DNA of 44,489 nt, taken from positions 1 to 44,489 of the IMG/VR virus record IMGVR_UViG_3300024358_000491. One strand, 5' to 3'. The stretch is from a virus. The notes beneath the pieces were generated by a model. That model ran no database searches. It saw only the letters and a program-made list of their open reading frames with translations, and was not told the origin of the DNA. Position 1 is the stretch's first letter, and the number at the start of each line of letters is the position of its first letter. The position numbers were made by a program, and so were the translations under genes. Shown piece after piece: positions 5,896 to 33,387 of the stretch.

Positions 5896-5971
5896 GCGCT
5901 AGTAGCCAAGTGGAACGGCAGGAGCCTCTAAAACTCCAGAAGCGTGAGTTCGATTCTCACCTAGCGCACCA
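5896..5971 (+). tRNA. tRNA with anticodon CUA (amber suppressor tRNA)
   Basis: A complete 76-nt cloverleaf. The acceptor stem GCGCTAG/CTAGCGC is perfect over 7 bp, with discriminator A and an encoded CCA (5969-5971). The T-arm is GTGAG/CTCAC around TTCGATT. The anticodon arm is GGAGC-CTCTAAA-ACTCC (5921-5937), with the last stem pair (C-A) mismatched. The anticodon at 5928-5930 is CTA, which reads UAG. The D-arm (GCCAAGTGGAACGGC) and short variable loop look most like tRNA-Gln, so glutamine insertion is an inference. A gene with an in-frame TAG lies 2.3 kb downstream. Confidence 0.9.
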
Positions 5972-8918: not shown

Positions 8919-9626
8919 ATGATATTACATGCATTTGGTGATAGTTTTGTTTCGGGGTACCAGGACGATTTTATCCATATATTAGGATACGATCCTGGTC
9001 ACGGAATGGAATTTGAAGAACGAGAAGAATATCTAAAATACAATGTAAGTTTTGCAGCATTAATTGCCAAACATCTTGGATTTAAATTTAAAAATTATGC
9101 AGAAAGAGGGAGTGGAAATTTTCCTCAGCTTGATAAATTAACAACAAGATTGCGAGCCGGAAAAATAAAATCTGGAAACATTGTATTATTTGGAATTACA
9201 ACGCCAATTCGAGATAGACTTTTTTTTGCCGAAGATGTTAAAATTCATAATGAAGAATTAAGTGGACCAATTTTAATCGATAGAGAACTAATAACATCTC
9301 AAAGATTAGACAAAGTAATTGATTCTGATTATTTTTATATTCTTTGTATATTAGAACAACTTGAAAGAATTTTTGGAATAAAAATAATTAAATTTAATCT
9401 ATTTGGAACACCTCCTCCCGTTCCTTATAATTTTATAAATTATATCAACGAAGGAACATTAATTGATATTTTAAATGATACATGGGGGCAAAAAATAAAA
9501 AATCAGTATCATACCAATATTGATGTTCCGGCGGGTTACGAAAATTTGTATACTTTGAAAAAACATCCGTCGATTGAAGGGCATAAAAAAATAGCATCTT
9601 GGTTTATTAATAATGTTAAACTATAA
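8919..9626 (+). CDS. SGNH/GDSL-type hydrolase
   Basis: 235 residues with the SGNH blocks: GDSF at 8-11 (catalytic Ser), a GSGN segment near residue 66 and HPSIEGHKKIASWF near the C-terminus (catalytic His). Related enzymes are esterases or deacetylases acting on lipids, glycans or peptidoglycan. There is no signal peptide. It is preceded by its own promoter and precedes the tmRNA. A second, smaller SGNH protein is encoded at 11414. The substrate is unknown. Confidence 0.8.
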   Translation: MILHAFGDSFVSGYQDDFIHILGYDPGHGMEFEEREEYLKYNVSFAALIAKHLGFKFKNYAERGSGNFPQLDKLTTRLRAGKIKSGNIVLFGITTPIRDRLFFAEDVKIHNEELSGPILIDRELITSQRLDKVIDSDYFYILCILEQLERIFGIKIIKFNLFGTPPPVPYNFINYINEGTLIDILNDTWGQKIKNQYHTNIDVPAGYENLYTLKKHPSIEGHKKIASWFINNVKL

Positions 9627-9639
9627 TTGTTAAATATAA

Positions 9640-9957
9640 GTTATTGCTGTATGAAGCAGATAGAAAAGTGTTCTGGACGCGGGTTCGACTCCCGCCTGGT
9701 CCACCAGAGAGAGCATTAGAGAACCGTTACTAAGGGCTTTGGCCGCGGTGTAGCAGACGTCATGCTAGTGTTCTCCCTAATGGGCCAGTCAAGGTTTCGA
9801 CAGGGCAAAGAGTAAGGAAGTGGACAGCACGGGAATGTGAAACCCGTAGGGTTGGGGGAACCCGGCCGAAGAAGCAAAAAAAGTAAACGCAAACGATACA
9901 CGTTTCGCATTAGCCGCTTAAGGCTTTGGGTAGCCATACCTCGAAACAGAAAATGGT
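9640..9957 (+). ncRNA. ssrA: Circularly permuted two-piece tmRNA
   Basis: The 3' (acceptor) piece comes first: T-arm GCGGG-TTCGACT-CCCGC (9679-9695), CTGGTCC (9696-9702), A, and encoded CCA (9704-9706). The 5' (coding) piece starts at 9782 with GGGCCAG, which pairs with CTGGTCC over 7 bp including a G3-U70 wobble, the alanine identity pair, then the GGTTTCGACAGGG D-region. The tag frame at 9889-9921 reads ANDTRFALAA then TAA, behind AAAAAAAGTAAAC, close to the E. coli tag context. A terminator follows. It rescues stalled ribosomes. Exact ends of each piece are estimated. Confidence 0.93.
9707..9781 (+). other. Intervening segment of permuted tmRNA
   Basis: Between the acceptor CCA and the coding piece. 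TTAG-AGAAC (9716-9724) pairs with GTTCT-cc-CTAA (9770-9780), closing a stem-loop that should be cut out when the two tmRNA pieces are matured. Confidence 0.75.
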
Positions 9958-9986
9958 AAAAATGGCGTCTTTTGACGCCATTTTTT
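9958..9986 (+). terminator. Intrinsic terminator of the tmRNA gene
   Basis: AAAAATGGCGTC-tttt(g)-GACGCCATTTTTT: a long perfect stem followed by a U-run, right after the coding piece of tmRNA. From 9987 to 10115 there is no ORF; it holds the leader of the outer-membrane barrel gene, with a TATATACT-like -10 near 10010 and a CAGTGTTACTACTG palindrome. Confidence 0.88.
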
Positions 9987-10115
9987 ATTGCATCTGCACA
10001 AGTAAGACTATATACTTGCTAATGATCAGTGTTACTACTGATTATTTTTCTGTCGTGTTGTTATAGGTTTAATACAAAAAGTTATCACACACGATTACAC
10101 ATAAGAGGATATTAT

Positions 10116-12430: not shown

Positions 12431-12502
12431 ATGTGGACAAAACCAGAAGCAGTTGAAATGCGTTACGGTTTCGAAGTTACAATGTATGTAATGAATCGAT
12501 AA
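12431..12502 (+). CDS. pqqA: PQQ precursor peptide PqqA
   Basis: A 23-residue ORF with its own promoter, a strong AAAGGAG site and a terminator immediately after. It starts MWTKPEAVEMRYG and ends FEVTMYVMNR. The E-V-T-M-Y core holds the glutamate and tyrosine that PqqE cross-links and that become pyrroloquinoline quinone; N-terminal MW-KP and the C-terminal Arg match bacterial PqqA. No pqqB, C, D or E is in the window, so it would feed host enzymes. The radical SAM gene downstream is not PqqE. The match is from memory of the family and strong for such a short peptide. Confidence 0.88.
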   Translation: MWTKPEAVEMRYGFEVTMYVMNR

Positions 12503-12513
12503 CATAGCAATTT

Positions 12514-12542
12514 AAAAATCCCGCTCAGGCGGGATTTTTTTT
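12514..12542 (+). terminator. Intrinsic terminator after pqqA
   Basis: AAAAATCCCGC-tcag-GCGGGATTTTTTTT: a 10-bp stem with a long U-run, isolating pqqA as a one-gene transcript. Confidence 0.95.
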
Positions 12543-12571
12543 GGCCGCAACAAACATATATTAAATATGGT

Positions 12572-14077
12572 ATGAGAAAAACATTTGATGTAATAATGGT
12601 AACCGATACGGCCACACACCCTAATTGGTCAAGAGGTTATGGAGCCCATAGACTTGCCAGCCATATGAGAAGTCACGGTTTTTCTGTTCTTGTGATTGAT
12701 TTTTCATCGGCAATGAATTTTGATATTTGGAAACAAATATGCAATTATGCAATTGGCGAAAATACTCAAATGATAGGGTTCTCTACAACTTGGTGGCCAT
12801 ATCGAAACCCGTTTGATAATTCTGATACTCCAAATTTTAGAAGATGTAATGTTGAGTGGCAAACAGAAACAGGCGAAAATGATGATATTGATCCTACATC
12901 ACTAACTTATCACGCAGCCACAGGAAAAGCAAAACCTTGGATTGATATAATTAAAGAAAAAAATAAAAAAATTAAAGTAGTTATAGGTGGCCCAAAAATA
13001 GACTATTACAAAGATTTTCCTGCTGATTATTTTATAAATGGATTAGGTGAAAATCAAATACTTGACTTGCTTACACAACCAAAAAGAATCTGGCCAAAAG
13101 TATTAGAGCACGATATAAACTCAAATGCAAGAGAATGGGGTTGGAGAGAAAGCACCACGGTCTACACAGACTTTGATCAAATTAAACCAAACGAAATTCT
13201 TACTTTAGAAATAGCCCGCGGTTGTAAGTTTAAATGTAGTTTTTGTTCGTTTCCTTTGATAGGACAAAAAGACATCGCTAGTTATCTCAAAACAGAAGAA
13301 ACCATTTATCAAGAAATGTTAGACAACTATAATAAATGGGGTACTACTAGATATTTTATTGCCGATGACACCTTTAATGATTCTATAGAAAAATTAGAAA
13401 TGGTAGCAAGAATTAAATCAAAATTACCTTTCGATTTAAAGATTAAAGCCTATATAAGAATTGATGTAATTGCAACACAACGAGAGCAATTAACACTTTT
13501 ACCAAAAACAGGACTGGCTTCGTGTTTTATAGGAATCGAATCGTTTCATCCAGAAGCTAGTAAATTTGCTGGTAAAGGTATGAGTGCCGATAAAAGAAAA
13601 AAAGTTTTATACGACATAAGAGATACGTGGGGTGATAGCGTGTCTTTAAATGCAGGATATATCGTTGGGTTGCCTGGCGAGGATGAAGCATTTGTTCGTG
13701 AACAAGCCAAATGGTTTATGCAAAAAGATTGTCCTATAAATTATGCAGCATCTTTTATTGGGTTAGTCATTAACCCATACCGTCCAGGATCTTATATTGC
13801 AGGCAGTGAGATTGATAGAAACCCAGAGGCATTTGGGTACACCATTCCGGACATGTCAAAACCCAATCACTGGATCAAAAATGACGGAACAGATATAACT
13901 TCTTATATGCAGGCCCAAAATTTAGCCAACGAACTTAACAGGCAAGTTTGGGCTGTCAATCGAGGCGAAGAAGATAATGTGGATTACAAGATTGCAGGCA
14001 GTATACAAGATCCAAAAAATGAATATTTCATTCCGTTGATTGAGATGCTTAAATCTCTTGACATTAACCAAAATTGA
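12572..14077 (+). CDS. B12-binding-type radical SAM protein
   Basis: 501 residues. The N-terminal part (about 1-170) resembles a cobalamin-binding Rossmann domain (IMVTDTATHPNWSRGYGAHR; KVVIGGPKIDYY), and the [4Fe-4S] motif CxxxCxxC is Cys218, Cys222 and Cys225 (ARGCKFKCSFC). The TIM-barrel half contains SCFIGIESFHPEA and NAGYIVGLPGEDE, typical of the BchE/elongator-like class. The SPASM cysteines of PqqE are absent. It is separated from pqqA by a terminator, so a PQQ role is not implied. It needs host SAM and perhaps cobalamin. Substrate unknown. Confidence 0.88.
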   Translation: MRKTFDVIMVTDTATHPNWSRGYGAHRLASHMRSHGFSVLVIDFSSAMNFDIWKQICNYAIGENTQMIGFSTTWWPYRNPFDNSDTPNFRRCNVEWQTETGENDDIDPTSLTYHAATGKAKPWIDIIKEKNKKIKVVIGGPKIDYYKDFPADYFINGLGENQILDLLTQPKRIWPKVLEHDINSNAREWGWRESTTVYTDFDQIKPNEILTLEIARGCKFKCSFCSFPLIGQKDIASYLKTEETIYQEMLDNYNKWGTTRYFIADDTFNDSIEKLEMVARIKSKLPFDLKIKAYIRIDVIATQREQLTLLPKTGLASCFIGIESFHPEASKFAGKGMSADKRKKVLYDIRDTWGDSVSLNAGYIVGLPGEDEAFVREQAKWFMQKDCPINYAASFIGLVINPYRPGSYIAGSEIDRNPEAFGYTIPDMSKPNHWIKNDGTDITSYMQAQNLANELNRQVWAVNRGEEDNVDYKIAGSIQDPKNEYFIPLIEMLKSLDINQN

Positions 14078-20700: not shown

Positions 20701-20770
20701 GTTAGCGTACCAGGTGGGCGTTAACAGGGGCAAAGGGCCCAAACAGATCTTACTTTAAAAGGAGATGACT
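20701..20770 (+). promoter_or_regulatory. Structured 5' leader of dnaK (two-hairpin element)
   Basis: Hairpin 1 is GTTAGCGT/GCGTTAAC (20701-20725), hairpin 2 is GGGC-aaagg-GCCC (20728-20740), then TCTTACTTTA and AAAAGGAGA before the start. The hsp20 leader at 22698 has the same order, with the stem bases changed in pairs. Confidence 0.8.
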
Positions 20771-22669
20771 ATGTCTAAGATCATCGGTATCGACTTAGGT
20801 ACCACAAATAGTTGCGTGGCCGTAATCGAAAACGGCAATTCTAAAGTTATTGAAAATAGCGAAGGCGCAAGAACAACACCCTCAATCGTTGCTTACACAC
20901 AAGATGAAATCCTTGTAGGTGCTACGGCAAAACGACAAGCAGTAACAAATCCAAAGAATACAATTTATGCAGCCAAGCGTTTAATTGGACGTAAGTTCAA
21001 AGAACAAGCTGTACAGAAAGACATCGACCTAATGCCATATGAAATTATGGAAAGTAAAAATGGTGATGCATGGGTTCGAGCACAAGGCAAAGAACTAGCA
21101 CCTCCACAGATTAGTGCTGAAGTTCTACGTAAAATGAAAAAGACTGCCGAAGACTATCTTGGTGCAGAAGTTACACAAGCAGTTATTACGGTTCCTGCAT
21201 ATTTTAATGATCAACAACGTCAAGCAACTAAAGATGCAGGACAAATTGCTGGACTAGAAGTTCTTCGTATTATTAATGAACCAACAGCAGCCGCATTGGC
21301 CTACGGTGTTGACAAACAAGATAAATCCGATCGCAAGATTGCAGTATACGACTTAGGTGGCGGTACATTTGACGTATCTATCATTGAGATTGCTAACGTA
21401 GACGGTGATAAACAAATTGAAGTTCTATCAACAAACGGTGATACATTCCTAGGCGGTGAAGACTTTGACCAACGCATCATGGATTACCTATGCGACGAGT
21501 TTAAGAAAGAACAAGGCATCGACCTAAAGAAAGATATGCTTGCCTTACAACGTCTAAAAGAAAGTGCTGAAAAAGCTAAGATTGAATTGTCTAGCTCTGC
21601 TAGCACAGATGTTAACTTGCCATACATTACAGCAGACGCAAGTGGTCCTAAACATATGAACGTTAAGATTACTCGTGCTAAGTTTGAATCAATGGTTGAA
21701 GACCTAATCAATCGCTCATTAGCGCCTTGCCGTCAAGCTATGCAAGACGCAGGCGTGAGTGCCTCCGATATTGACGAAGTTATCTTAGTTGGCGGACAAA
21801 CTCGTATGCCTAAGGTGCAGGAAGAAGTTGAAAAACTATTCGGCAAAGCACCACGCAAAGATGTTAATCCAGACGAGGCAGTTGCTGTTGGTGCTGCTAT
21901 CCAAGGTGCTGTGCTAGGTGGTGATCGCAAAGACGTTCTATTGCTAGACGTTACTCCATTAAGTCTGGGTATTGAAACCCTTGGCGGTGTGATGGCAAAG
22001 ATCATTCAAAAGAACACAACTATTCCTACTAAAGGACAACAAACATTCTCTACAGCAGAAGACAATCAACCAGCCGTTGATATTAAAGTGTTCCAAGGAG
22101 AGCGTGAGCTTGTTCAACATAACAAACTGCTAGGCGAATTTAAGTTAGACGGAATTGTTCCTGCTCCACGAGGCATTCCACAAGTTGAAGTAACCTTTGA
22201 TATTGATGCAAACGGAATCATGCACATCAGTGCTAAAGATAAGTCAACTGGCAAAGAAAATAAAATTACTATTAAATCGGATAGTGGTCTAAGCAAAGAA
22301 CAAATCGATGAGATGATTCGTGATGCTGAAGCTAATGCTGACGCTGACAAGAAAGCACGTGAACTTATTGAAACTAAAAATTCTGCAGAATCTCAAATTC
22401 ATCAAGTTAAAAAAGATCTTGAAGAATTCCGCAGTGAACTTACTGAAACAGAAATTGCTGATATTGAAAAAACAATTACAGATGTTGAAACTGCCGCTAA
22501 AGGTGACAGCGTAGATGCTATTAAAACAGAATTAGAAAAAGTTGTTCCAGCAATGTCAGTGCTTTTACAAAAACGTCAGCAAAAAGAGCAACCTCAAACT
22601 CCAGACGCTTCTGCTAATCCAGAAGATAACGTAGTTGATGCTACATTTACTGAAACTAAAAAAGATTGA
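20771..22669 (+). CDS. dnaK: Chaperone DnaK (Hsp70)
   Basis: 632 residues, full bacterial length. Start at 20771, because the ATG two codons earlier abuts the AGGAG site. The N-terminal ATPase domain has [14 protein letters not shown], the conserved Thr-rich phosphate loops, [13 protein letters not shown] and [14 protein letters not shown]; the substrate domain has [18 protein letters not shown]; the C-terminus ends in an acidic lid ([10 protein letters not shown]). All standard motifs are intact. DnaJ and GrpE are not in the window, so host partners are needed. It is followed by hsp20 and clpS. A complete DnaK is rare on a phage. Confidence 0.96.
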
Positions 22670-22767: not shown

Positions 22768-23202
22768 ATGAACAATCAACTTGCAAGACTAGATGCTATT
22801 AATAGAGCACTAATTGGTTTCGATCAAATGTTTGATCAAATGGAAAGACGATTCGCTAACAGCGTTTCTAATAATTATCCTCCGCACAACATTTTAAAAA
22901 TGGGAGATAATGAATATTCAATTCAGTTAGCAGTAACTGGCTTTGAAAAAAATGAAATTGCTGTTACCGTAGAAAACAATATTCTTATTGTTAAAGGTGA
23001 AAGTATGACAACAGACTATGCACCTGAACAATATCTGCATCGTGGTTTAGCAACACGTGACTTTGTTAAAGAATTTCCTCTTGCAGAACACATTGAAGTT
23101 GTTGGTGCAGAAACAAAAAATGGTATGCTTACTATCAAATTAGTTCGCAATATTCCAGAATCTGCAAAACCAAAGATCATTGACATTGTAGAGGTTAAGT
23201 AA
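22768..23202 (+). CDS. Small heat shock protein Hsp20 (IbpA-like)
   Basis: 144 residues from the ATG behind TAAGGAGA. The alpha-crystallin domain covers about 33-125: NILKMGDNEYSIQLAVTGFEKNEI, then LHRGLATRDFVKEFPLAEHIEV and ETKNGMLTIKLVRNIPE, typical of the IbpA class. It holds unfolded proteins for DnaK/ClpB refolding. It lies directly behind dnaK and shares its leader RNA, so the two are probably co-regulated. Hsp20 genes are known in cyanophages. Confidence 0.95.
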   Translation: MNNQLARLDAINRALIGFDQMFDQMERRFANSVSNNYPPHNILKMGDNEYSIQLAVTGFEKNEIAVTVENNILIVKGESMTTDYAPEQYLHRGLATRDFVKEFPLAEHIEVVGAETKNGMLTIKLVRNIPESAKPKIIDIVEVK

Positions 23203-23242: not shown

Positions 23243-23548
23243 ATGGGAACACTAACCGACATCGAAATTGATGAAAAAATAAAAGTTACAATTCAACCTC
23301 CAAAGTTATGGAAAGTTATATTTTTTAATGACGACCAAACACCTATGGATTTTGTTGTAGAATTATTGGTAAACATTTTTAAACATAACGAAAATAGAGC
23401 AAGAGATCTTACTTTAGAAATTCATAATACAGGAAGTGCAGTTGCAGGAATTTATCCTCATGAAATTGCTGAACATAGAGGATTAATGGCAACTCAAGTT
23501 TCTCGAACAAACGGTTTTCCATTACAAATACAGGTGGTAGAAGAATGA
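23243..23548 (+). CDS. clpS: Clp protease adaptor ClpS
   Basis: 101 residues with the ClpS core: KLWKVIFFNDDQTPMDFVVELL (the NDD and TPM segments that form the N-degron pocket), and GSAVAGIYPHEIAEHR as the second half. ClpS hands N-degron substrates to ClpAP. It follows hsp20 behind a GGAG site and overlaps the heme oxygenase start. A phage ClpP is encoded at 42.5 kb, but ClpA must come from the host. Confidence 0.9.
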   Translation: MGTLTDIEIDEKIKVTIQPPKLWKVIFFNDDQTPMDFVVELLVNIFKHNENRARDLTLEIHNTGSAVAGIYPHEIAEHRGLMATQVSRTNGFPLQIQVVEE

Positions 23549-24090
23549 GCTTAAGAGAAATCACAAAAGATTTACATCATGAAGCAGAAACAACAAAATT
23601 TGCTAAAGAATTACTTAGTGGTAAAATTGGTGGTAAGAAATATGTAAATTATCTTTACAACCTATTAGCAATTTATGATCCAATTGAATGGTATGCAAGT
23701 CGTCAGGGCATGTTTGAAAAAATGCCGTATTTGCCAAGACTTAAACATATTCATGCAGATTTTAAAGAATTGGACGACGGCGGCTATTTGTATCTAACTC
23801 CGTCTACATTAGAATATCAAGCGTATTTGCATAAGTTAGGTAATGACCCAGAACGCAAACATTTGATTAAAGCGCATTTATATTGTCGACATATGGGCGA
23901 TTTAAATGGCGGGCAAATCATTAAAAAACAAGTAGCTCATATCAGTAGTGGTAAGTTTTATGATTTTAATGATGCAGATACATTAAAGGTACAGATTCGT
24001 CAAGAGCTTACAGACGACCTCGGTGATGAGGCTCGTTTGGCATTTGAATATGCTATTCGAATGATGAAGGATCTCTATGACGGAGAGTAA
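23545..24090 (+). CDS. ho1: Heme oxygenase (biliverdin-forming)
   Basis: 181 residues of the HO family. The proximal His is His11 (KDLHHEAE) and the distal helix is GDLNGGQ (118-124). It opens heme to biliverdin IX-alpha, CO and Fe2+, using ferredoxin. It overlaps clpS by four bases and the bilin reductase by 14 bases, so the two-step heme-to-bilin route is translated together. In cyanophages such genes serve phycobilins; here the neighbours are not cyanophage-like, so the purpose may be iron release, a pigment or light/redox sensing. Confidence 0.93.
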   Translation: MSLREITKDLHHEAETTKFAKELLSGKIGGKKYVNYLYNLLAIYDPIEWYASRQGMFEKMPYLPRLKHIHADFKELDDGGYLYLTPSTLEYQAYLHKLGNDPERKHLIKAHLYCRHMGDLNGGQIIKKQVAHISSGKFYDFNDADTLKVQIRQELTDDLGDEARLAFEYAIRMMKDLYDGE

Positions 24091-24763
24091 TGTTTGGAAT
24101 ACGTTAATTGGAATCCAACAATTACTTGAAGACTCGTTTAACAGAACAGGCACCGAAATACAGGAGCCTGGAATGGATAGGTTTAATCAGCCTGGTTGGG
24201 TCAATCGTGTGTGGTCCAGCGATGCTTATCGTCGTGCTCACATTGATGTAGTAGACGCTAGAGAAACCAAAGGATTGTGGATGATGCATTGTTGCATTTT
24301 CCCTCATATTCATAACTCTGCTCCTATATTTGGTTTTGATGTAATAGCAGGAAAAAACAAGATCACAGGCTGTTTCATAGACTACAGCCCAACTACTAAC
24401 AAACAGCATCCTATGATAGATTATTTTGCTGAAGAAGTTACTAGATACGAGTGGATCCGCAAACGTGAATTACCCGACTGGGCACAGCGTATTTTTAGCT
24501 CTAGTATGGTAGCTGCGGGCAATGTTAAAGACGAATCAGAATTGAAACAGATTACTAGTCTAGCACATATACTGGTAAATCACTACTTAGAAACCGTAGG
24601 TGAAACTAATAATACTACCGCAGATGCAACTTTTGAACAGAATTACTATGCTCAAAATCAAAAACAAAACCCGCATACACCGCGTGTAATGGCTAGTTTG
24701 GGTTTAGACGAGGAAGATGTTCGAGTGTTTATTCAAGAATGCCTGTTCCCAGAAATTCGATAA
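24077..24763 (+). CDS. pcyX: Ferredoxin-dependent bilin reductase, PcyX-like
   Basis: 228 residues. The FDBR core is clear: AHIDVVDARETKGLWMMHCC then FPHIHNSAPIFGFDVIAG and ITGCFIDYSP. His71 and Asp88 align with the catalytic His88/Asp105 of PcyA. It reduces biliverdin to a phycobilin. Overlap with a heme oxygenase gene on a non-cyanophage-like genome matches the PcyX group described from marine viral metagenomes (phycoerythrobilin-forming); that subgroup call is from memory. No ferredoxin is in the window. PcyA or another FDBR class cannot be excluded. Confidence 0.82.
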   Translation: MTESNVWNTLIGIQQLLEDSFNRTGTEIQEPGMDRFNQPGWVNRVWSSDAYRRAHIDVVDARETKGLWMMHCCIFPHIHNSAPIFGFDVIAGKNKITGCFIDYSPTTNKQHPMIDYFAEEVTRYEWIRKRELPDWAQRIFSSSMVAAGNVKDESELKQITSLAHILVNHYLETVGETNNTTADATFEQNYYAQNQKQNPHTPRVMASLGLDEEDVRVFIQECLFPEIR

Positions 24764-26159: not shown

Positions 26160-26642
26160 ATGTCTAAAACAAAAATAATATTAGTGACACTGATGCTGCC
26201 TTCAGTTGTATTGGCAGCAGAACTACAGCATAACTTTAATAGTCCTGCTTTTAACGGGCAAGGCTATAGTTCGCACGTTCTAACAATCAAACAACTTGAA
26301 GATCAAGCAAAAGAAAAGAACAGAGCAGCGGTAGAAGCATTAAAAGCAAAAGCAGAAGCTGAAGCAGCAAATACACCAACTGCACGTTTTATTGCTAATC
26401 TTGAAAGTCGTATCTATTCACAATTAGCTAAACAACTAACTGATAGTATGTTTGGTGAAGGTGCAACCTGTACAACCAGAGGTGTTGTATGCGGAACAAT
26501 TCCAGATATTGGTGGTAATTCAATTAGTTGGAAACTCGGTGATGGCAGTGATAATGGTATGATTGTCATTACAATTCAAAGCCTTACTAATGCCTCGGAT
26601 ATAACAACAATGAAGGTTCCAGCCGGAACGTTTTATTTTTAA
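26160..26642 (+). CDS. csgF: Curli assembly protein CsgF
   Basis: 160 residues. Signal peptide (about 1-19, cleaved after VLA), then ELQHNFNSPAFNGQGYSS, the CsgF N-terminus that plugs the CsgG pore, and TARFIANLESRIYSQLAKQL matching the conserved helix. Two cysteines follow in a C-terminal domain (CTTRGVVCG). CsgF couples secretion to nucleation of curli fibres at the outer surface. csgG follows 11 bases later, the classic pairing. Confidence 0.88.
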   Translation: MSKTKIILVTLMLPSVVLAAELQHNFNSPAFNGQGYSSHVLTIKQLEDQAKEKNRAAVEALKAKAEAEAANTPTARFIANLESRIYSQLAKQLTDSMFGEGATCTTRGVVCGTIPDIGGNSISWKLGDGSDNGMIVITIQSLTNASDITTMKVPAGTFYF

Positions 26643-26652
26643 GGGGCGGTAA

Positions 26653-27813
26653 ATGAAAAAAACAATAATAGCCCTAGGGGTAATCGCTATTTTATCAGGC
26701 TGTGCCACTAGTTCATCAATAAGAGAAAAGATGACCGGTGAACAATTTGATGAGCCAACCGTAGAGCAGAACAAATATCTAAAAAAATTAGGTGACGGAA
26801 TTAGAGCACCTAAAGGTGGACCAATTACCGTAGCAGTATACGGTTTCCGTGATATGACCGGACAACGTAAATCTGTTCCAAATATTGCTAGTTTAAGTTC
26901 AGCAGTTACTCAAGGTGCAGATTCATATCTTGTAAAAGCATTACAAGATGTAGGCAATGCAAGATGGTTTACCGTAGTTGAGCGTGTTGGTCTTGAGAAC
27001 CTAATTAAAGAACGTCAAATGATTCGTCAAATGCGTGAACAATATCAAGGCCGCGATGCTAAACCGTTGCCACCAATGTTGTTTGCAGGAGTTATTATCG
27101 AAGGCGGAATTGTTGGCTACGATTCAAATACATCAACCGGCGGTAGTGGTGCAAGATTTTTAGGAATTGGAGCACAAACACAATATCAAAGTGATACCGT
27201 AACCGTAAATTTAAGAACGGTTAGCGTTTCTACTGGAGAAGTATTGACTAGCATTACCGTTACCAAGACCGTGCTAAGTTATATGGATAAGGTCGGTGTG
27301 TTAAGATTTGTGTCGGCCGGTGAACAAGCAATTGAAGCTGAAATTGGTGCAAGCATTAACGAAAGCATCAATAAAGCAACTAATCTAGCTATTCAAGCAG
27401 CCGTTATAGAAACTATTAATGAAGGTGCCAAAAAAGGACATTGGGCATTTAAAGATGATTTGGTTATAACCCATCCGCTACCTGTTCAACCAGAAATAAA
27501 AATTGAACCTATGGTAGAGGTAAAGGTTGAACCTAAGGCAGAAGTAAAGGTCGAACCTAAGGCAGAAGCAAAACCAGAAGTAAAGGCAGAAGCAAAACCA
27601 GAAGCAAAACCAGAACCAACTCCAGCTAAAGTTCTTACTAAAAAATCAACAACAAGAACAACGGTAAGAGAAAATGATAAGGCTGGATCAACTATCCTTT
27701 CAATATTATCACCAGGGGACGAAGTTGAAGTATTACGAGAACAAGGAAATATGACTTTTGTTCAAACAAAGAGTGGTAAGAAGGGATGGGTAGTAAGTAA
27801 TTTCTTAAAATAA
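26653..27813 (+). CDS. csgG: Curli secretion channel CsgG with C-terminal SH3b domain
   Basis: 386 residues. A lipoprotein signal ends in LSGC (Cys17). The CsgG domain covers about 45-275: ITVAVYGFRDMTGQRK, WFTVVERVGLENLIKERQ, FAGVIIEGGIVGYDSN and the transmembrane-hairpin region QSDTVTVNLRTVSVSTGEV. It forms a nonameric outer-membrane export pore. Unusually, it continues through a Lys/Glu/Pro/Ala-rich linker of repeated VKVEPKAE/AKPE units (about 275-320) into an SH3b domain ending GKKGWVVSNFLK. The SH3 part would face the periplasm and could bind peptidoglycan. Confidence 0.93.
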   Translation: MKKTIIALGVIAILSGCATSSSIREKMTGEQFDEPTVEQNKYLKKLGDGIRAPKGGPITVAVYGFRDMTGQRKSVPNIASLSSAVTQGADSYLVKALQDVGNARWFTVVERVGLENLIKERQMIRQMREQYQGRDAKPLPPMLFAGVIIEGGIVGYDSNTSTGGSGARFLGIGAQTQYQSDTVTVNLRTVSVSTGEVLTSITVTKTVLSYMDKVGVLRFVSAGEQAIEAEIGASINESINKATNLAIQAAVIETINEGAKKGHWAFKDDLVITHPLPVQPEIKIEPMVEVKVEPKAEVKVEPKAEAKPEVKAEAKPEAKPEPTPAKVLTKKSTTRTTVRENDKAGSTILSILSPGDEVEVLREQGNMTFVQTKSGKKGWVVSNFLK

Positions 27814-27858
27814 TAACGGTACACTAATAAAAATAATAAAGTACCAAGGAGCGAAGAA

Positions 27859-28662
27859 ATGTATAAAAAAGATATTAAACTAATGGCGGCTATTGTCTCC
27901 GCTATATTTTGGGGTTCTGGTGCCCATGCAGCTGGTAGCAGCACTGGCCCAAACAACGTATATATAGAACAAGTGGGAAGTAGTAATACAATTACTATTG
28001 AACAAGTTGGCGGGACAAATAATGTTGGCGGAACAGCAGGTTCTGTTAGCGTTGATGCAACAGGTGTAACAACATTAACACCAACTGCACCTAGTTCGTC
28101 AAATTATGCAACAATAAACGGTAGTAGCAATACCGTATCAATCCAACAAAACGGAAATAACAATTCCTCACAATACAATATTGTTGGAAGTAAGAATACA
28201 TATACAGAAACCATTAATGGTTATAATAACCAAGTAAAATTAACGGTTAATAATGGAACCGTTACAGGTACTTCTAATTCTACAATGACAAATACCATCA
28301 CTGGCGATAGCAACGTAATAATTCAAAATATTACTTCTAGTCGTTTTACGTCAACTAATACAATTACAGGTGATAGTAACCAAGTTACTACAGATAGCAC
28401 TACATCAGGTACATTAAGTAGCATTAGTAATACTATTACTAGCAGTAATAATAACGTGATCAACATTCAACAAGCTGACACAGGAACTCATACCGTTGTA
28501 TTGAATACGACTGGTGGTGATTACAACTCTATTACTACTCAACAACAAGGAAGTAATAACAGCACAATCAATGTTAGCACAAACGGAGCACACAATACCA
28601 TTACGGTTCGTAGTACTAATGGATCTAGTATTACTAATCCGATGACAGCAATAGTGAGGTAA
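27859..28662 (+). CDS. Curlin-repeat protein (CsgA/CsgB-like)
   Basis: 267 residues with a signal peptide ending near GAHA. The mature chain is almost all Asn, Ser, Thr, Gly and Gln in curlin-like repeats (NVYIEQVGSSNTITIEQVGG, NTVSIQQNGNNN, NNVINIQQADTG, NSITTQQQGSNN), the amyloid beta-helix strand-turn units. Middle repeats are degenerate, with TNTITGDSN units in place of the Gln-Gln type. It is a likely substrate of the CsgG channel. AAGGAG site 9 bases before ATG. CsgA or CsgB role cannot be decided. Confidence 0.88.
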   Translation: MYKKDIKLMAAIVSAIFWGSGAHAAGSSTGPNNVYIEQVGSSNTITIEQVGGTNNVGGTAGSVSVDATGVTTLTPTAPSSSNYATINGSSNTVSIQQNGNNNSSQYNIVGSKNTYTETINGYNNQVKLTVNNGTVTGTSNSTMTNTITGDSNVIIQNITSSRFTSTNTITGDSNQVTTDSTTSGTLSSISNTITSSNNNVINIQQADTGTHTVVLNTTGGDYNSITTQQQGSNNSTINVSTNGAHNTITVRSTNGSSITNPMTAIVR

Positions 28663-28664
28663 CA

Positions 28665-29756
28665 ATGAATGCCCTGCTCGGAGTAATTTTATCACTTTTT
28701 GTGGTTAATGCCTGGGCGGGCATTGGTATTGTTGCCGACGTAAAAGGAACAGCCTGTGAGATCCAACGAAATAAAAGTAAATTATCCGGAGTTAAAGGTG
28801 CAGAAATTGAAACAATGGATACCTATATTACAGGATCTTGCGTAAGCAATATCACTTTTAAAGATGATACTAAAGTTCGAGTTACAGAAAATAGCAGGCT
28901 GCTTATCGACGATTTTGTCTTCGATCCTAAAAAGTCTGATGCTGGCAAACTGGCTATTAAAGCCGCTATGGGAACCGTCAGATACACATCAGGACAGATT
29001 GCTAAGAATAATCCTCAGCAAGTTAATATCCACACTCCTACCGCCTCGATAGCAGTTCGAGGAACTGATTTTACAATGACCGTAGATGAAGCAGGACAAA
29101 GTCTTGTTGTTCTAGTCCCGTCATGTAAAGATGATAAAGAAGTTAAACAATTTGAATTAGATGAACAACGTTGTCGCGTGGGAAAAATTGAGGTAACGAC
29201 GCAAGCAGGTTCAGTGGAGTTAGACAAAGCATTCGAGGGAACATATGTTACAAGTGCTAATATGCCACCGACTCCTCCGGTCGTTATGAATATTATCGAA
29301 TCAAAAATTAATAATAATTTAATCTTAGTTAAGCCTATGGAAATTCAGCGTTCTTTAGCCACTGCTACTAAAACTAAAAAAGAAATTGAATCAGAAGAAC
29401 TAGAACAAGAAGCCATACGTCAAATGATGCAACGCCTTGAAGAATCAAGAGAATCCCCTCAAGCAAAAGTATTACAATTTACCTATGCTGATGGAAGCAA
29501 AGGATGTAATCCTTCAACAAATATTTGTGTTAACTGGGATAATCCAGACGGATCGTCAATACAAGACAAAGGCAAAGGTGTGGCGTTTAGAAAAAACGAA
29601 GACCACTATGCTGAAATTAAAACTTTAGGCTATGCATCAAATACAACAATAACCGTTATACATAATGATCAACCAGATACTATTGTTATTGGCAGCGGAG
29701 ATCCAAACGGTAACGTTGTTTATATAAAACAAAACGCTGGTGTATTAAAAAGATGA
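28665..29756 (+). CDS. FecR-domain exported protein
   Basis: 363 residues with a signal peptide (1-18). The FecR domain (about 45-140) includes FKDDTKVRVTENSRLLIDDF and TPTASIAVRGTDFTMTV, the usual end of that fold. A charged helix (about 240-265) and a beta-rich end follow. Two cysteine pairs could form disulfides. In bacteria, FecR-like proteins of this type are found near CHASE2 cyclases and surface-protein genes. It is three bases after the curlin gene and overlaps the next by four. Confidence 0.85.
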   Translation: MNALLGVILSLFVVNAWAGIGIVADVKGTACEIQRNKSKLSGVKGAEIETMDTYITGSCVSNITFKDDTKVRVTENSRLLIDDFVFDPKKSDAGKLAIKAAMGTVRYTSGQIAKNNPQQVNIHTPTASIAVRGTDFTMTVDEAGQSLVVLVPSCKDDKEVKQFELDEQRCRVGKIEVTTQAGSVELDKAFEGTYVTSANMPPTPPVVMNIIESKINNNLILVKPMEIQRSLATATKTKKEIESEELEQEAIRQMMQRLEESRESPQAKVLQFTYADGSKGCNPSTNICVNWDNPDGSSIQDKGKGVAFRKNEDHYAEIKTLGYASNTTITVIHNDQPDTIVIGSGDPNGNVVYIKQNAGVLKR

Positions 29757-31135
29757 AAAGACTAATACAATTTTTATTCTTAATAATGATAACACCATTT
29801 GTTTGGTGTGAAGATCTTTCTGCACAAGGAACAGGTTTTGAATCAGGAACATTGTCTGGTTGGACATCGGCCGGTGGAGTTAGTGTATCTGGAGCCAGTT
29901 CTAATAACCTTGGAGGCAAAGCCTGGGTAGTTAATCCTTATGGTACTAAAATGGGTATGCTTTATCCTAGTGGAAGTACAAGTTTTGATACAGCATTGTC
30001 TACTCTAGGACTATCGGCAAATGAAAATTCAGCTGTTAGATCTTTTTTATCTGCCAACGCCGGTGGCGGAAGTCCTACTCCAACTAATGCTGCTTATGTA
30101 ATGACTACCGTAGCATTACAAGCAGGAGTTACCTATACCTTTGCTTGGAACTATTTGAGCACAGATTATTTTCCATTCAACGACGGTTCTATGATGACAC
30201 TGACACATGCCAGTAATGCTAGTGTTATCCCATCGTTGAATAACGGTAATCAACGTTTTGCATTATTAGGTTTTACAAATCCCGGATCAGGAAATTACTC
30301 AACAGGATCCTACGGTTCTACAGGTTGGCAGTTAGCTGTGTTTACCGTACCCGAAGACGGCAATTATGTTTTAGGTTTTGCCGCATTTAATCTAGGCGAC
30401 ACTATTCTAAGTCCTATCTTATACATTGACGAAGTTCAAGGAAGCACAACACTCAACGGCCAAAACTTTGGACCTGTTGCTCCTAATGCAGGTTCAACAG
30501 CACCAGCAACTCCTTCAGAACCAACAGCACCAACTTTATGTTGTGGCGGTAGCGCAGCATCATTTAATATTAATGCTATGCACCAAACAAACATTAATAC
30601 GTTTTTGAATAGACCACACGCTGATTCAAAAGTTATGATTGAACAAATTGGCAGCTATAATCATATTACGGTTCAACAAACAGGCACCAATCAAAACTAT
30701 TTAGAATACATAGGCACAGGAAATAATAATCAAATAACCGTCAATCAATCTGGCAATGTTAATACACAGGTTAACTATGCTGAGATAAGATTAGGAACTA
30801 CAGGTAGTGCAAATAATAATACCGTGAATCTTACACAACAAAGTACAGGTGGTGGCAAAGGAGCATTTATTACCGTTAACGATAATAATAATGCTGTGAC
30901 ATTACAGCAAAAAGATTCAGGAAGTCATTATGCGGCTATACATGTAAGTGGCGGATCAAAAACCGTTGATGTTATTCAACAAGGATCTGCCGGTCATATG
31001 GCAGATATTACATTATCAGGGCCAGGGAGCCGAAGTTTAAATCTTACACAAGGCGGCTCTACACAACAATTCTATAGTATAAACAGCAGTTGTAGCAGTA
31101 ATTGTCAAGCGATAACCGTTACGCAAGGACAATAA
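29753..31135 (+). CDS. Large curlin-repeat protein with N-terminal lectin-like domain
   Basis: 460 residues. Signal peptide (about 1-19), then a beta-sandwich domain (about 25-235) with GFESGTLSGWTSAGG and YLSTDYFPFNDGSMM, resembling the exported GxW-type carbohydrate-binding or surface domains. After a Pro/Thr linker and a CC pair, curlin repeats occupy about 290-460 (SKVMIEQIGSYNHITVQQTG, NNQITVNQSGNVN, KTVDVIQQGS). It probably decorates or nucleates the fibre and may bind cells or surfaces. A T4 late octamer overlaps its stop. Confidence 0.85.
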   Translation: MKRLIQFLFLIMITPFVWCEDLSAQGTGFESGTLSGWTSAGGVSVSGASSNNLGGKAWVVNPYGTKMGMLYPSGSTSFDTALSTLGLSANENSAVRSFLSANAGGGSPTPTNAAYVMTTVALQAGVTYTFAWNYLSTDYFPFNDGSMMTLTHASNASVIPSLNNGNQRFALLGFTNPGSGNYSTGSYGSTGWQLAVFTVPEDGNYVLGFAAFNLGDTILSPILYIDEVQGSTTLNGQNFGPVAPNAGSTAPATPSEPTAPTLCCGGSAASFNINAMHQTNINTFLNRPHADSKVMIEQIGSYNHITVQQTGTNQNYLEYIGTGNNNQITVNQSGNVNTQVNYAEIRLGTTGSANNNTVNLTQQSTGGGKGAFITVNDNNNAVTLQQKDSGSHYAAIHVSGGSKTVDVIQQGSAGHMADITLSGPGSRSLNLTQGGSTQQFYSINSSCSSNCQAITVTQGQ

Positions 31136-31138
31136 ATA
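31131..31138 (+). promoter_or_regulatory. T4-type late promoter octamer AATAAATA
   Basis: Overlaps the end of the curlin gene and is five bases before the next ATG; it could supply late transcripts of the lipoprotein and cyclase. Confidence 0.45.
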
Positions 31139-31142
31139 ATAG

Positions 31143-31355
31143 ATGCGTAAATTAACGTTGTTAATTTCATTTATTATTACAGGTTGTGCAACAGGTCCTA
31201 GACCAGTGTCTGCACCACCACCGCCCAGTTGTATTAATATTCCCGGTGAAGGATGTAAACAATTTAATGCTGGTAATAAGGGCGGTACAACACTAGGACA
31301 TCATAACAATGAAGATATCCCTGCCAAAGCTGCCGCAGTTCCAACTCAACCCTAA
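31143..31355 (+). CDS. Small lipoprotein
   Basis: 70 residues. A signal segment ends in ITGC (Cys15), then a proline-rich linker and a CINIPGEGCKQF cysteine pair. Overlaps the cyclase gene start by 47 bases in another frame. It may be a small outer-membrane partner for the curli machinery; function unknown. Confidence 0.7.
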   Translation: MRKLTLLISFIITGCATGPRPVSAPPPPSCINIPGEGCKQFNAGNKGGTTLGHHNNEDIPAKAAAVPTQP

Positions 31356-33387
31356 AAAGATTTTAATCAGTCCTTGGACAGCATTAATAACACTTGTACT
31401 TATTTTAAGTATAAGAATAGCTGATCCTGTCTTTGTAGAAAGTATAAGATTACGTTACTTTGATACGTTAATTACAAGTCAAACACCTACACAAAATAAT
31501 ATTATTACAATTAACATTGATGAAAATGCTTTAGACAAATATGGCCAATGGCCTTTTAAGCGTGATGTTTATGCACAACTTATAGACGAGCTTTATAAAC
31601 GCAACGCTGGTCTAGTAGTATTCAATGTATTAATGACTGAAAAAGATCGTCAAGGAGGCGATGCACGACTAGCAACTACTCTCAGCGACTTTCCTGTAAT
31701 ACTTCCAAACATGCCGGCAGACAGGATGAAAAACACTCCTCGTCAGCCCGGTACAGCCGTTATTGGTTCTGACTTTCAAGAATCAATAATTCAATACCCG
31801 GGTATAATTGCAAATATTTCAGAACTTGAAAAACGAGCGGCAGGTGTTGGTATTGTAAACACACTACCAGAAGTTGATGGAGTTAATAGAAGAATGCCTC
31901 TAGTCGTTAGTGTTGATGGAAGAGTTTATCCAAGTCTGGCCATGGAGGCATTAAGAGTTGCCGCAGGAGATACAACCGTTCAAGTCAAACTTTTTGAAGG
32001 CGGTGTTGAAAAAATGCGAATACCTAAGTTTGGTCCTATTACTACTGATCAATTAGGTCGTGTGTGGATTGACTGGAGTCAACAATCAAAATCATATTCA
32101 ATGACAGAGTTGCCTAAAGACTTTGGCGGTGCTGTTGTTATTGTAGGTGTTGCTGCGGCCGGTTTGGGCAATCCTGTCCCTACAGCAGTAGGCAGCGTTT
32201 GGCCACACGATGTGCAGGCCGCAGTTTTAGGAACAATGTTCAATGGCGTTGTTATTCAAAGACCTGATTATGCCGACGGTGTTGAAATACTAACATTAGC
32301 ATTAGCAGGTATACTATTAATTTTCTTAACGAGGTATGTATATGTCGGATTGGCAACTACAATTGGTCTGGTGGTCATCAGCGGTATTGGCAGTTGGTTT
32401 GTGTTTAATAATTTTCTATGGTTATTTGACGCTACTGCCCCTGGAGTTGGCTTGGTATTGGTCGCTTTGCATGCCTACGGTGTCAAGTTTGTAAGTGAGT
32501 TTTTACAAAAGCAACAAATTAAAAAACAATTTGGTTCTTATGTAAGCCCTGTTATCGTTGAAAGATTACAAAAAGATCCTAGTCTAATTCGTTTAGGCGG
32601 GGAAGAAAAAATGCTCACAGCAGTTATGACTGATATGCGCAACTTCACAGGTCTAGGTGAAAAGTATGGAGCAGACGTTGAAGGTTTTACAGCTATCATG
32701 AATTCTTATATGACAGCAATTAGTAAACCTGTGTTTGCCAACGATGGATGTTTAATTAAATTTATTGGTGATGCATCTTTACATATACACGGAGCTCCGG
32801 TAGATGACGATCGTCATGCTTATCACGGTGTTAAAACTGCTTTAGAAATGATAGAAGCAGTCAACGAATTTAACAAACATCTAGAGTCCATTGGAAAACC
32901 ACCCGTTGGTATGGGAGCAGGTGTTAACACTGGTAAGATTCTAGTTGGTAATATTGGTAGTGAAGGTAAAATGGGTTATGACGTACTAGGCGATCCTGTA
33001 TCGGTAGCAAGTCGACTTGAAGGACAAACAAAAGGTTATGGTGTACTAATCATTATAGGCCCAGATACCTACGAAGAAGTTAAAAATGATTTTACGTGTT
33101 TAGAATTAGATTGTATTGCAGTTAAAGGCAAAGCTATTGGCTTAAACATTTATACTCCAATAACAACAAAAGCTGAGTCGAATGATCTACAAATGCATGC
33201 CGCAATGCTACAATTATATCGTCAACAAAAATTTGATCAAGCTATTAAATTCTGTAAAGATTTAATGGGGAGGTTTGAAGGATCTATGGATCATTATTAT
33301 GAAATATGGATTGAACGTTGCGAGGAGATGAAAACACATGATTTACCCGCAGACTGGGATGGGGTCTTTAGAGCCACTTCTAAATAA
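31309..33387 (+). CDS. CHASE2-domain class III adenylate cyclase
   Basis: 692 residues. First membrane helix about 24-40, CHASE2 sensor (about 42-320; FDTLITSQTPTQNNI, INIDENALDKYGQWPFKRD), three membrane helices (about 328-395), then a class III cyclase. Metal aspartates are Asp442 (VMTDMRNFTG) and Asp488 (KFIGDASLHI); the base-specifying Lys lies just before, and GYDVLGDPVSVASRLEG carries the transition-state residues. All catalytic residues look intact, so cAMP synthesis is likely. CHASE2 senses an unknown periplasmic signal. It ends a cluster of curli and FecR genes, which suggests coupled surface sensing. No comparable phage gene is known to me. Confidence 0.93.
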   Translation: MKISLPKLPQFQLNPKKILISPWTALITLVLILSIRIADPVFVESIRLRYFDTLITSQTPTQNNIITINIDENALDKYGQWPFKRDVYAQLIDELYKRNAGLVVFNVLMTEKDRQGGDARLATTLSDFPVILPNMPADRMKNTPRQPGTAVIGSDFQESIIQYPGIIANISELEKRAAGVGIVNTLPEVDGVNRRMPLVVSVDGRVYPSLAMEALRVAAGDTTVQVKLFEGGVEKMRIPKFGPITTDQLGRVWIDWSQQSKSYSMTELPKDFGGAVVIVGVAAAGLGNPVPTAVGSVWPHDVQAAVLGTMFNGVVIQRPDYADGVEILTLALAGILLIFLTRYVYVGLATTIGLVVISGIGSWFVFNNFLWLFDATAPGVGLVLVALHAYGVKFVSEFLQKQQIKKQFGSYVSPVIVERLQKDPSLIRLGGEEKMLTAVMTDMRNFTGLGEKYGADVEGFTAIMNSYMTAISKPVFANDGCLIKFIGDASLHIHGAPVDDDRHAYHGVKTALEMIEAVNEFNKHLESIGKPPVGMGAGVNTGKILVGNIGSEGKMGYDVLGDPVSVASRLEGQTKGYGVLIIIGPDTYEEVKNDFTCLELDCIAVKGKAIGLNIYTPITTKAESNDLQMHAAMLQLYRQQKFDQAIKFCKDLMGRFEGSMDHYYEIWIERCEEMKTHDLPADWDGVFRATSK

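Follow-up and report, generated by a model that had tools for sequence, protein, structure and literature searches.

Why phages, most of all those of non-photosynthetic hosts, carry pigment-making genes is an open question, and the role of phage bilin genes has been called enigmatic (PMC11480375). The question is raised by a 44,489-base IMG/VR fragment, the whole of which is referred to here as the window, where a heme oxygenase (HO) gene, hemO, is followed by pcyX, a gene for a bilin reductase. The features on which the analysis draws are listed by their positions in the window.

9593 to 9987, + strand: permuted tmRNA of betaproteobacterial type, tag ANDTRFALAA (Rfam beta_tmRNA RF01850, 120.9 bits; ARAGORN)
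12431 to 12502, + strand: pqqA-like peptide gene (MWTKPEAVEMRYGFEVTMYVMNR), also present in six related loci
20765 to 22669, + strand: DnaK/Hsp70, conserved block (Pfam HSP70, E=7e-261)
22768 to 23202, + strand: Hsp20 small heat-shock protein, conserved block (Pfam HSP20; 99 of 104 loci)
23243 to 23548, + strand: ClpS-like adaptor, conserved block (Pfam ClpS, E=6.4e-26; precedes HO in 100 of 104 loci)
23545 to 24090, + strand: heme oxygenase (hemO), 181 aa (Pfam, invariant catalytic residues, purifying selection)
24077 to 24763, + strand: PcyX-type ferredoxin-dependent bilin reductase, 228 aa, predicted phycoerythrobilin synthase (5OWG match, residues, tree)
26160 to 33387, + strand: module of CsgF, CsgG, curlin-repeat, FecR, curlin-like and CHASE2-adenylate cyclase genes (Pfam; Melnitz annotation)

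The hemO-pcyX pair and its relatives

The hemO frame is intact and matches Pfam Heme_oxygenase with E=1.3e-21. Its product has the proximal His and the Gly-rich distal helix (GDLxGGQ) of canonical heme oxygenases (PF01126), and the proximal His11 together with G118, D119, G122 and G123 of the distal helix are invariant among 16 relatives. The protein is, by these features, a canonical heme oxygenase, predicted to open heme to biliverdin IX-alpha. The reductase frame matches Pfam Fe_bilin_red (E=3.7e-16) and overlaps hemO by 14 nt, while clpS and hemO overlap by 4 nt; the two intact frames thus form the overlapping heme-to-phycobilin pair that an earlier note on this DNA had described. In nearly all of the first 81 relatives examined, hemO immediately precedes pcyX, so that the adjacency is not due to chance.

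Among all PDB sequences searched, the closest to the window reductase is 5OWG (PcyX_EBK42635, E=8.6e-71), the best PcyA reaching 1.6e-15. Residue D57, which corresponds to Asp55 of PcyX when counted from the 5OWG alignment with an assumed 8-residue tag, is invariant across 21 PcyX sequences together with H71 and D88; the equivalents of His88 and Asp105 are present, and the position of PcyA Glu76 is occupied by Asp. A phylogeny of ferredoxin-dependent bilin reductases (FDBRs) was among the checks proposed in the earlier note, and in a quick tree sparse in PcyA sequences and lacking PebS, PebA and PebB, the window enzyme falls inside the PcyX clade and not with cyanobacterial PcyA. The PDB match, the retained Asp55, the absence of Glu76 and the tree all agree with the original assignment to PcyX. 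Asp55 has been named the PcyX-specific catalytic residue, and the enzyme of the freshwater phage CB_2, which lacks it, makes phycocyanobilin (PCB) (Wegner et al., 2024; PMC11480375). Because Asp55 is present in the window enzyme, unlike in that of CB_2, the product predicted from these residues is most likely phycoerythrobilin (PEB).

Both genes are under purifying selection. Between the window and the related locus L002 the PcyX genes show a dN of 0.066 and a dS of 0.35, with lower ratios in the other measurable pairs, and PcyX is better conserved than HO (median identity to the window of 76% vs. 47%). In the same comparison (window 23545-24763) dS is discordant, being 2.2 for HO vs. 0.35 for PcyX; this mismatch implies partly separate histories for the two genes and suggests that pcyX has recombined from phage to phage independently of hemO.

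Relatives in IMG/VR number 312 in a scan with the window protein and at least 587 with an alignment query. In 84,980 bacterial and archaeal species genomes we found two PcyX matches only, one in the Rickettsiales MAG SAT45 (L084) and the other in the Gammaproteobacteria MAG MED685 (L083). The L084 contig displays the order hsp20-clpS-HO-pcyX and is probably a misbinned phage contig. A bacterial origin of PcyX was rejected, considering that it would rest on these two contigs, at least one of them with phage-like synteny.

The only isolate with a PcyX about 50% identical to that of the window is Pelagibacter phage Mosig, cyanophage FDBRs reaching 22-30%. The PcyX proteins of Mosig and of a marine phage (PcyX_EBK42635, 5OWG) align with the window enzyme over the full length at this identity and share its catalytic set of Asp55, His and Asp, and in Mosig hemO lies directly upstream of pcyX, as in the window. 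The window sequence nevertheless belongs to a separate large clade of jumbo phages (18 relatives, 71-92% identity to the window), where pcyX lies inside a dnaK-hsp20-clpS block; the lineage carries phycobiliprotein-like tail domains, which Mosig lacks. A second known relative is CB_2, which carries HO, a true PcyA and a distant alaS (a 'broken cassette') and for which a proteobacterial host has been proposed (Wegner et al., 2024; PMC11480375). It resembles the window lineage, which is probably also of fresh water, in having HO, an FDBR and a distant alaS, but differs in its PCB-making PcyA without Asp55. The window had been put forward as a large genomic setting for PcyX; the setting is real, but it was already known from Mosig, and hemO, FDBR and alaS in a freshwater phage were reported in 2024 (PMC11480375). 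Phage hemO-pcyX cassettes are therefore not new in themselves, the present one being PcyX in heterotroph jumbo phages inside a chaperone block. What is added is the number of IMG/VR relatives (at least 587), the fixed dnaK-hsp20-clpS-hemO-pcyX order and, in 8 of the 14 long contigs, a 5-ALA synthase.

The gene order was read in the 104 loci with 4.5 kb upstream, which come from the best 80 loci per scan and so describe the nearest clade; the five genes are all present and identically ordered in 95 of them. This order, together with the SOD and AhpC genes carried by the window, would be expected if HO and PcyX belonged to a proteostasis and oxidative-stress set (DnaK, Hsp20, ClpS, SOD, AhpC) where bilins act as antioxidants or take up electrons. 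We consider such a role decidedly improbable, since Hsp20 and ClpS are paired in Pseudomonas phage PA5oct with no HO or PcyX match, so that the pairing does not need bilins, and since an antioxidant role needs HO alone, leaving unexplained why a four-electron bilin reductase is so strictly conserved. As to the PA5oct pair itself (L261), hsp20-clpS may have preceded the bilin genes of this block, or may be a common jumbo-phage unit.

Phage lineage, host and habitat

Homologues of 43 of the 58 window ORFs, largely collinear, were found in the 364-kb contig G001, and the window phage is a jumbo phage of about 360 kb or more. The terminase of G001 is nearest to those of PA5oct (53%), Sinorhizobium phage Phosso (52%) and Agrobacterium phage Atu_ph07 (48%), and its tmRNA belongs to the same Rfam family as that of the window. 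The tmRNA was taken as a clue to the host and not as proof, because that of Methylophilales phage Melnitz is mismatched to its own host lineage (PMC9004378). A further lineage clue is the curli-FecR-cyclase module, which the window has in common with Melnitz. The curli module occurs in Pelagibacter phage HTVC008M as well as in Melnitz, and Melnitz also has the cyclase and a tmRNA; both phages differ from the window lineage in having no PcyX match and no tail domains of the kind described below. The pqqA-like peptide gene is followed directly by a gene for a B12-binding radical SAM protein (window 12431-14077). A tRNA with a CTA anticodon, a possible amber suppressor, was observed in the window (5896-5971) and in G001 (L286 19529-19603).

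The neighbours named in the earlier note as pointing away from a cyanophage, namely curli genes (CsgF, CsgG, curlin), pqqA, a permuted tmRNA and clpS, are all real, and its view is borne out by the G001 terminase, the beta-type tmRNA, the curli module and pqqA. On the basis of these features (terminase, tmRNA, pqqA and curli module) the host is probably heterotrophic and betaproteobacterial, and a cyanobacterial one is unlikely. The marks of a cyanophage, which are structural genes nearest to those of cyanophages or photosystem genes, were found neither in the G001 terminase nor, as psbA, in 38 domain-bearing contigs. Given that a tail domain is common to these phages and cyanophages, one could suppose that the former infect cyanobacteria after all and that their bilins go to the host phycobilisomes. 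We attach next to no weight to this idea: psbA is absent from the 38 contigs that bear the domain, the tmRNA is betaproteobacterial, pqqA is present, and the terminase is nearest to those of phages of Pseudomonas, Sinorhizobium and Agrobacterium.

A GOLLD giant RNA lies in G001 inside a cluster of 28 tRNAs (L281 14282-14746, complement; Rfam RF02032, 212 bits). Since GOLLD RNA is associated with lakes, and since the IMG sample numbers are ones that we take to be of freshwater origin, it is probable that this is a phage of fresh water.

A phycobiliprotein-like domain in phage tails

A search for phycobilisome proteins gave sub-threshold matches only, all of them in giant tail-like proteins, which hold tandem repeats with the motif K-C-x-R-D-I-G-Y-I-V-D-A. 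The window itself contains no tail genes, and the link to these proteins is made through its lineage, represented by G001. We considered whether the PF00502 matches were coiled-coil artefacts of giant tail proteins, which was ruled out by profile, masking and fold tests.

Eighteen repeats picked by the C-x-R-D pattern, eight of them belonging to PcyX contigs and the others to cyanophages, served as seeds for a profile that was compared with 177,635 distinct PDB sequences. The best 60 of the 159 matches are all phycobiliproteins (best E 5.5e-7), and the CxRD of the tail repeat aligns onto their chromophore-bearing Cys-Ala-Arg-Asp. Because the seeds had been chosen by that pattern, the search was repeated with CxRD masked, when phycobiliproteins made up most of the 30 matches and the 23 best (best E 0.0023), and with a profile of 52 sequences that had been collected independently, when they made up 25 of 26 matches, at weak E-values (best 0.046). 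A single repeat modelled with AlphaFold2 and no templates reached a pLDDT of 92.7; with this model the top 50 Foldseek matches are all phycobiliproteins (TM up to 0.77), and VIA gives a Z of 12.0 and an rmsd of 2.1 over 101 of 110 residues. Helical folds may score high by chance, and for that reason the agreement between sequence and fold carries weight. The repeat, as modelled, has the phycobiliprotein globin fold.

Like phycocyanin, phycoerythrin and allophycocyanin (PF00502), the repeat thus combines the fold with the CxRD chromophore motif. The model spans 110 aa, matching phycobiliprotein residues of about 33-149. Unlike phycobiliproteins, the repeats are tandem domains of about 110 aa in open frames of 750 to 7000 aa that encode tail or baseplate proteins, they have an extra near-invariant Asp, and their bilin site is a prediction from sequence. 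This Asp (column 57 of the repeat model), 14 residues past the Cys, is retained in 99% of copies and missing from the aligned phycobiliproteins; it is not a known chromophore residue and may serve in metal binding, bilin contact or packing. We found no description of phycobiliprotein-like phage tail domains in the literature, subscription literature and preprints being outside the scope of the search.

Across 374 distinct copies found by HMM, the Cys of CxRD is conserved in 87%, the Arg in 90% and the Asp in 94%; copies in PcyX phages have the complete motif in 42 of 55 cases and the Cys in 79%. A bilin reductase and CxRD tail domains are both present in all eight contigs above 200 kb that have either. 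Of these, the five selected by PcyX carry 6-11 copies each (11 in G001) and the three selected by the domain all have FDBR and HO genes, while at least two copies were found in 11 of the 14 PcyX contigs above 100 kb. One of the domain-selected contigs, G073, has an FDBR that, being of the PcyA and not the PcyX type, was acquired separately. In this 207-kb contig the gene (L251, G073:78448-78963) encodes Glu76 and adjoins an HO gene, and G073 may be related to phage CB_2. An FDBR is missing from most of the domain-bearing contigs of 100-200 kb, these contigs being fragments. The 199-kb contig G060, with the domain and no FDBR, was examined as a counter-example and set aside as a fragment of the G001 lineage (TerL 88%).

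When 50,697 phage records were searched twice, each time with a single query, the domain was matched in cyanophages only. The CxRD HMM was positive in 10 of 11 cyanophages and in none of nine controls (T4, phiKZ, PA5oct, XacN1, Phosso, SCTP-2, HTVC008M, Mosig and Melnitz), and an ordinary myovirus feature was discarded as an explanation on these grounds. The link to bilin genes is not strict, as Mosig has HO and PcyX with no domain and P-SSM2, which we take to be a PebS phage, also has none.

Cyanophages with bilin auxiliary metabolic genes (ho1, pcyA, pebS, cpeT) resemble the window lineage in combining heme-to-bilin enzymes with CxRD tail domains in large myoviruses, and differ from it in that their hosts build phycobilisomes and that they carry cpeT, which encodes a bilin lyase. 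In each of the 19 cyanophage types for which both positions were determined, cpeT precedes a CxRD repeat by 1.5-7.1 kb on the same strand, although these phages are related and the 19 cases are not independent events. The gene that it precedes, and that bears CxRD, is that of the short tail fibre, as in ACG-2014j and S-WAM2 (cpeT at L141:1538-2062 and L143:142-666). CpeT was not detected in 33 jumbo-lineage or domain-bearing contigs, and bilin attachment in the jumbo lineage would therefore need another lyase or self-attachment. According to a 2023 review, HO, PcyA and CpeT are confined to the myoviruses among cyanophages, with one podovirus exception for PebS (PMC10452541), a confinement that fits a tail-borne role. 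Phage P-HM2, in which we count five CxRD copies, is unable to adsorb in the dark, whereas P-SSP7 is able to infect in the dark (PMC7112961); with two phages this contrast is an anecdote.

The domain and the FDBR could be two traits of one lineage. In a rival reading the tail globin domains are purely structural relatives of phycobiliproteins that have lost bilin binding, and their co-occurrence with bilin genes reflects shared ancestry. In agreement with this, Asp57 is more conserved than the Cys, which is missing from some copies, and the link is broken in Mosig and P-SSM2. We find this reading somewhat doubtful, given that the three residues of the chromophore motif, C, R and D, rank with the most conserved columns, that every cyanophage examined has cpeT upstream and that the domain is accompanied by two different FDBR lineages.

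Heme supply and the fate of the bilin

Eight of 14 long PcyX records (106-364 kb) contain a 5-ALA synthase scoring far above the cut-off, the AlaS of G001 included, and neither a 2Fe-2S ferredoxin nor a ferrochelatase was detected in 14-15 long records, mostly fragments. The 'ferrochelatase' annotated in Mosig has no PF00762 match. A lineage that both makes heme precursor and degrades heme would be expected to yield bilin or CO as its product and not a net release of iron, and pure iron release, one of the purposes suggested in the earlier note, fits poorly with the synthase in these records. A broader form of the idea is iron and heme turnover, where HO would release the iron of host heme for use by enzymes of both phage and host, and PcyX would just clear inhibitory biliverdin. 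The intact HO under selection and the position of the Mosig cassette among 2OG-Fe(II) oxygenases speak for it, and an iron role has already been discussed (PMC11480375). It seems to us unlikely all the same, since a PcyX more conserved than HO would be odd in a waste remover, the synthase would promote the making of new heme, whose renewed breakdown would bring no net gain of iron, and no ferrochelatase was found in the long records.

The bilin or the CO may alternatively act on the host, either as a phytochrome chromophore or in signalling by CO. Bacteriophytochromes occur in many betaproteobacteria. In a recombinant system, a phage PcyA that makes PCB is able to load the phytochrome Cph1 (PMC11480375). 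The 14 long PcyX records, mostly fragments, yielded no PHY domain. In phytochromes, moreover, PEB forms a photoinactive adduct, and PEB is the predicted product of PcyX. We give this alternative very little credence.

The best candidate acceptor that we found is the phycobiliprotein-like tail domain of the related genomes. In the mechanism that we propose, HO would open heme to biliverdin and PcyX would reduce this by four electrons using host ferredoxin, most likely to phycoerythrobilin. The phage 5-ALA synthase of many relatives would feed heme synthesis, so that the lineage could push glycine and succinyl-CoA towards bilin. The acceptor would be the phage's own virion, where CxRD globin domains in large tail and baseplate-type proteins would give pigmented tails, and such a tail may act as a light sensor, a light-gated adsorption device or a photoprotectant. 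The identity of the enzymes, the conserved operon, the fold and motif of the domain and its co-occurrence with bilin genes are what the analysis shows, whereas the bilin product, its loading onto the tail and the purpose are inferred. That this is a heme-to-bilin pathway by which a heterotroph jumbo phage pigments its own tail is the explanation to which we tentatively lean, at a little short of an even chance. A wider proposal is possible, though we would not call it probable, namely that phages of bilin-free heterotrophs and cyanophages alike make virions with tail proteins that are true biliproteins, the tandem domains in tail fibres and baseplates being loaded by HO and PcyX or, in cyanophages, by host bilins and CpeT, and that these are photoreceptors for light-dependent adsorption or for the timing of infection.

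The CxRD tail domains offer a concrete, testable bilin acceptor. If bilin pigmentation of the tail holds true, the bilin auxiliary metabolic genes of phages would have a purpose directed at the virion, virions would be pigmented, and a photoreceptor in the tail could underlie the long-known light-dependent adsorption of cyanophages; a large viral branch would also be added to the evolution of phycobiliproteins.
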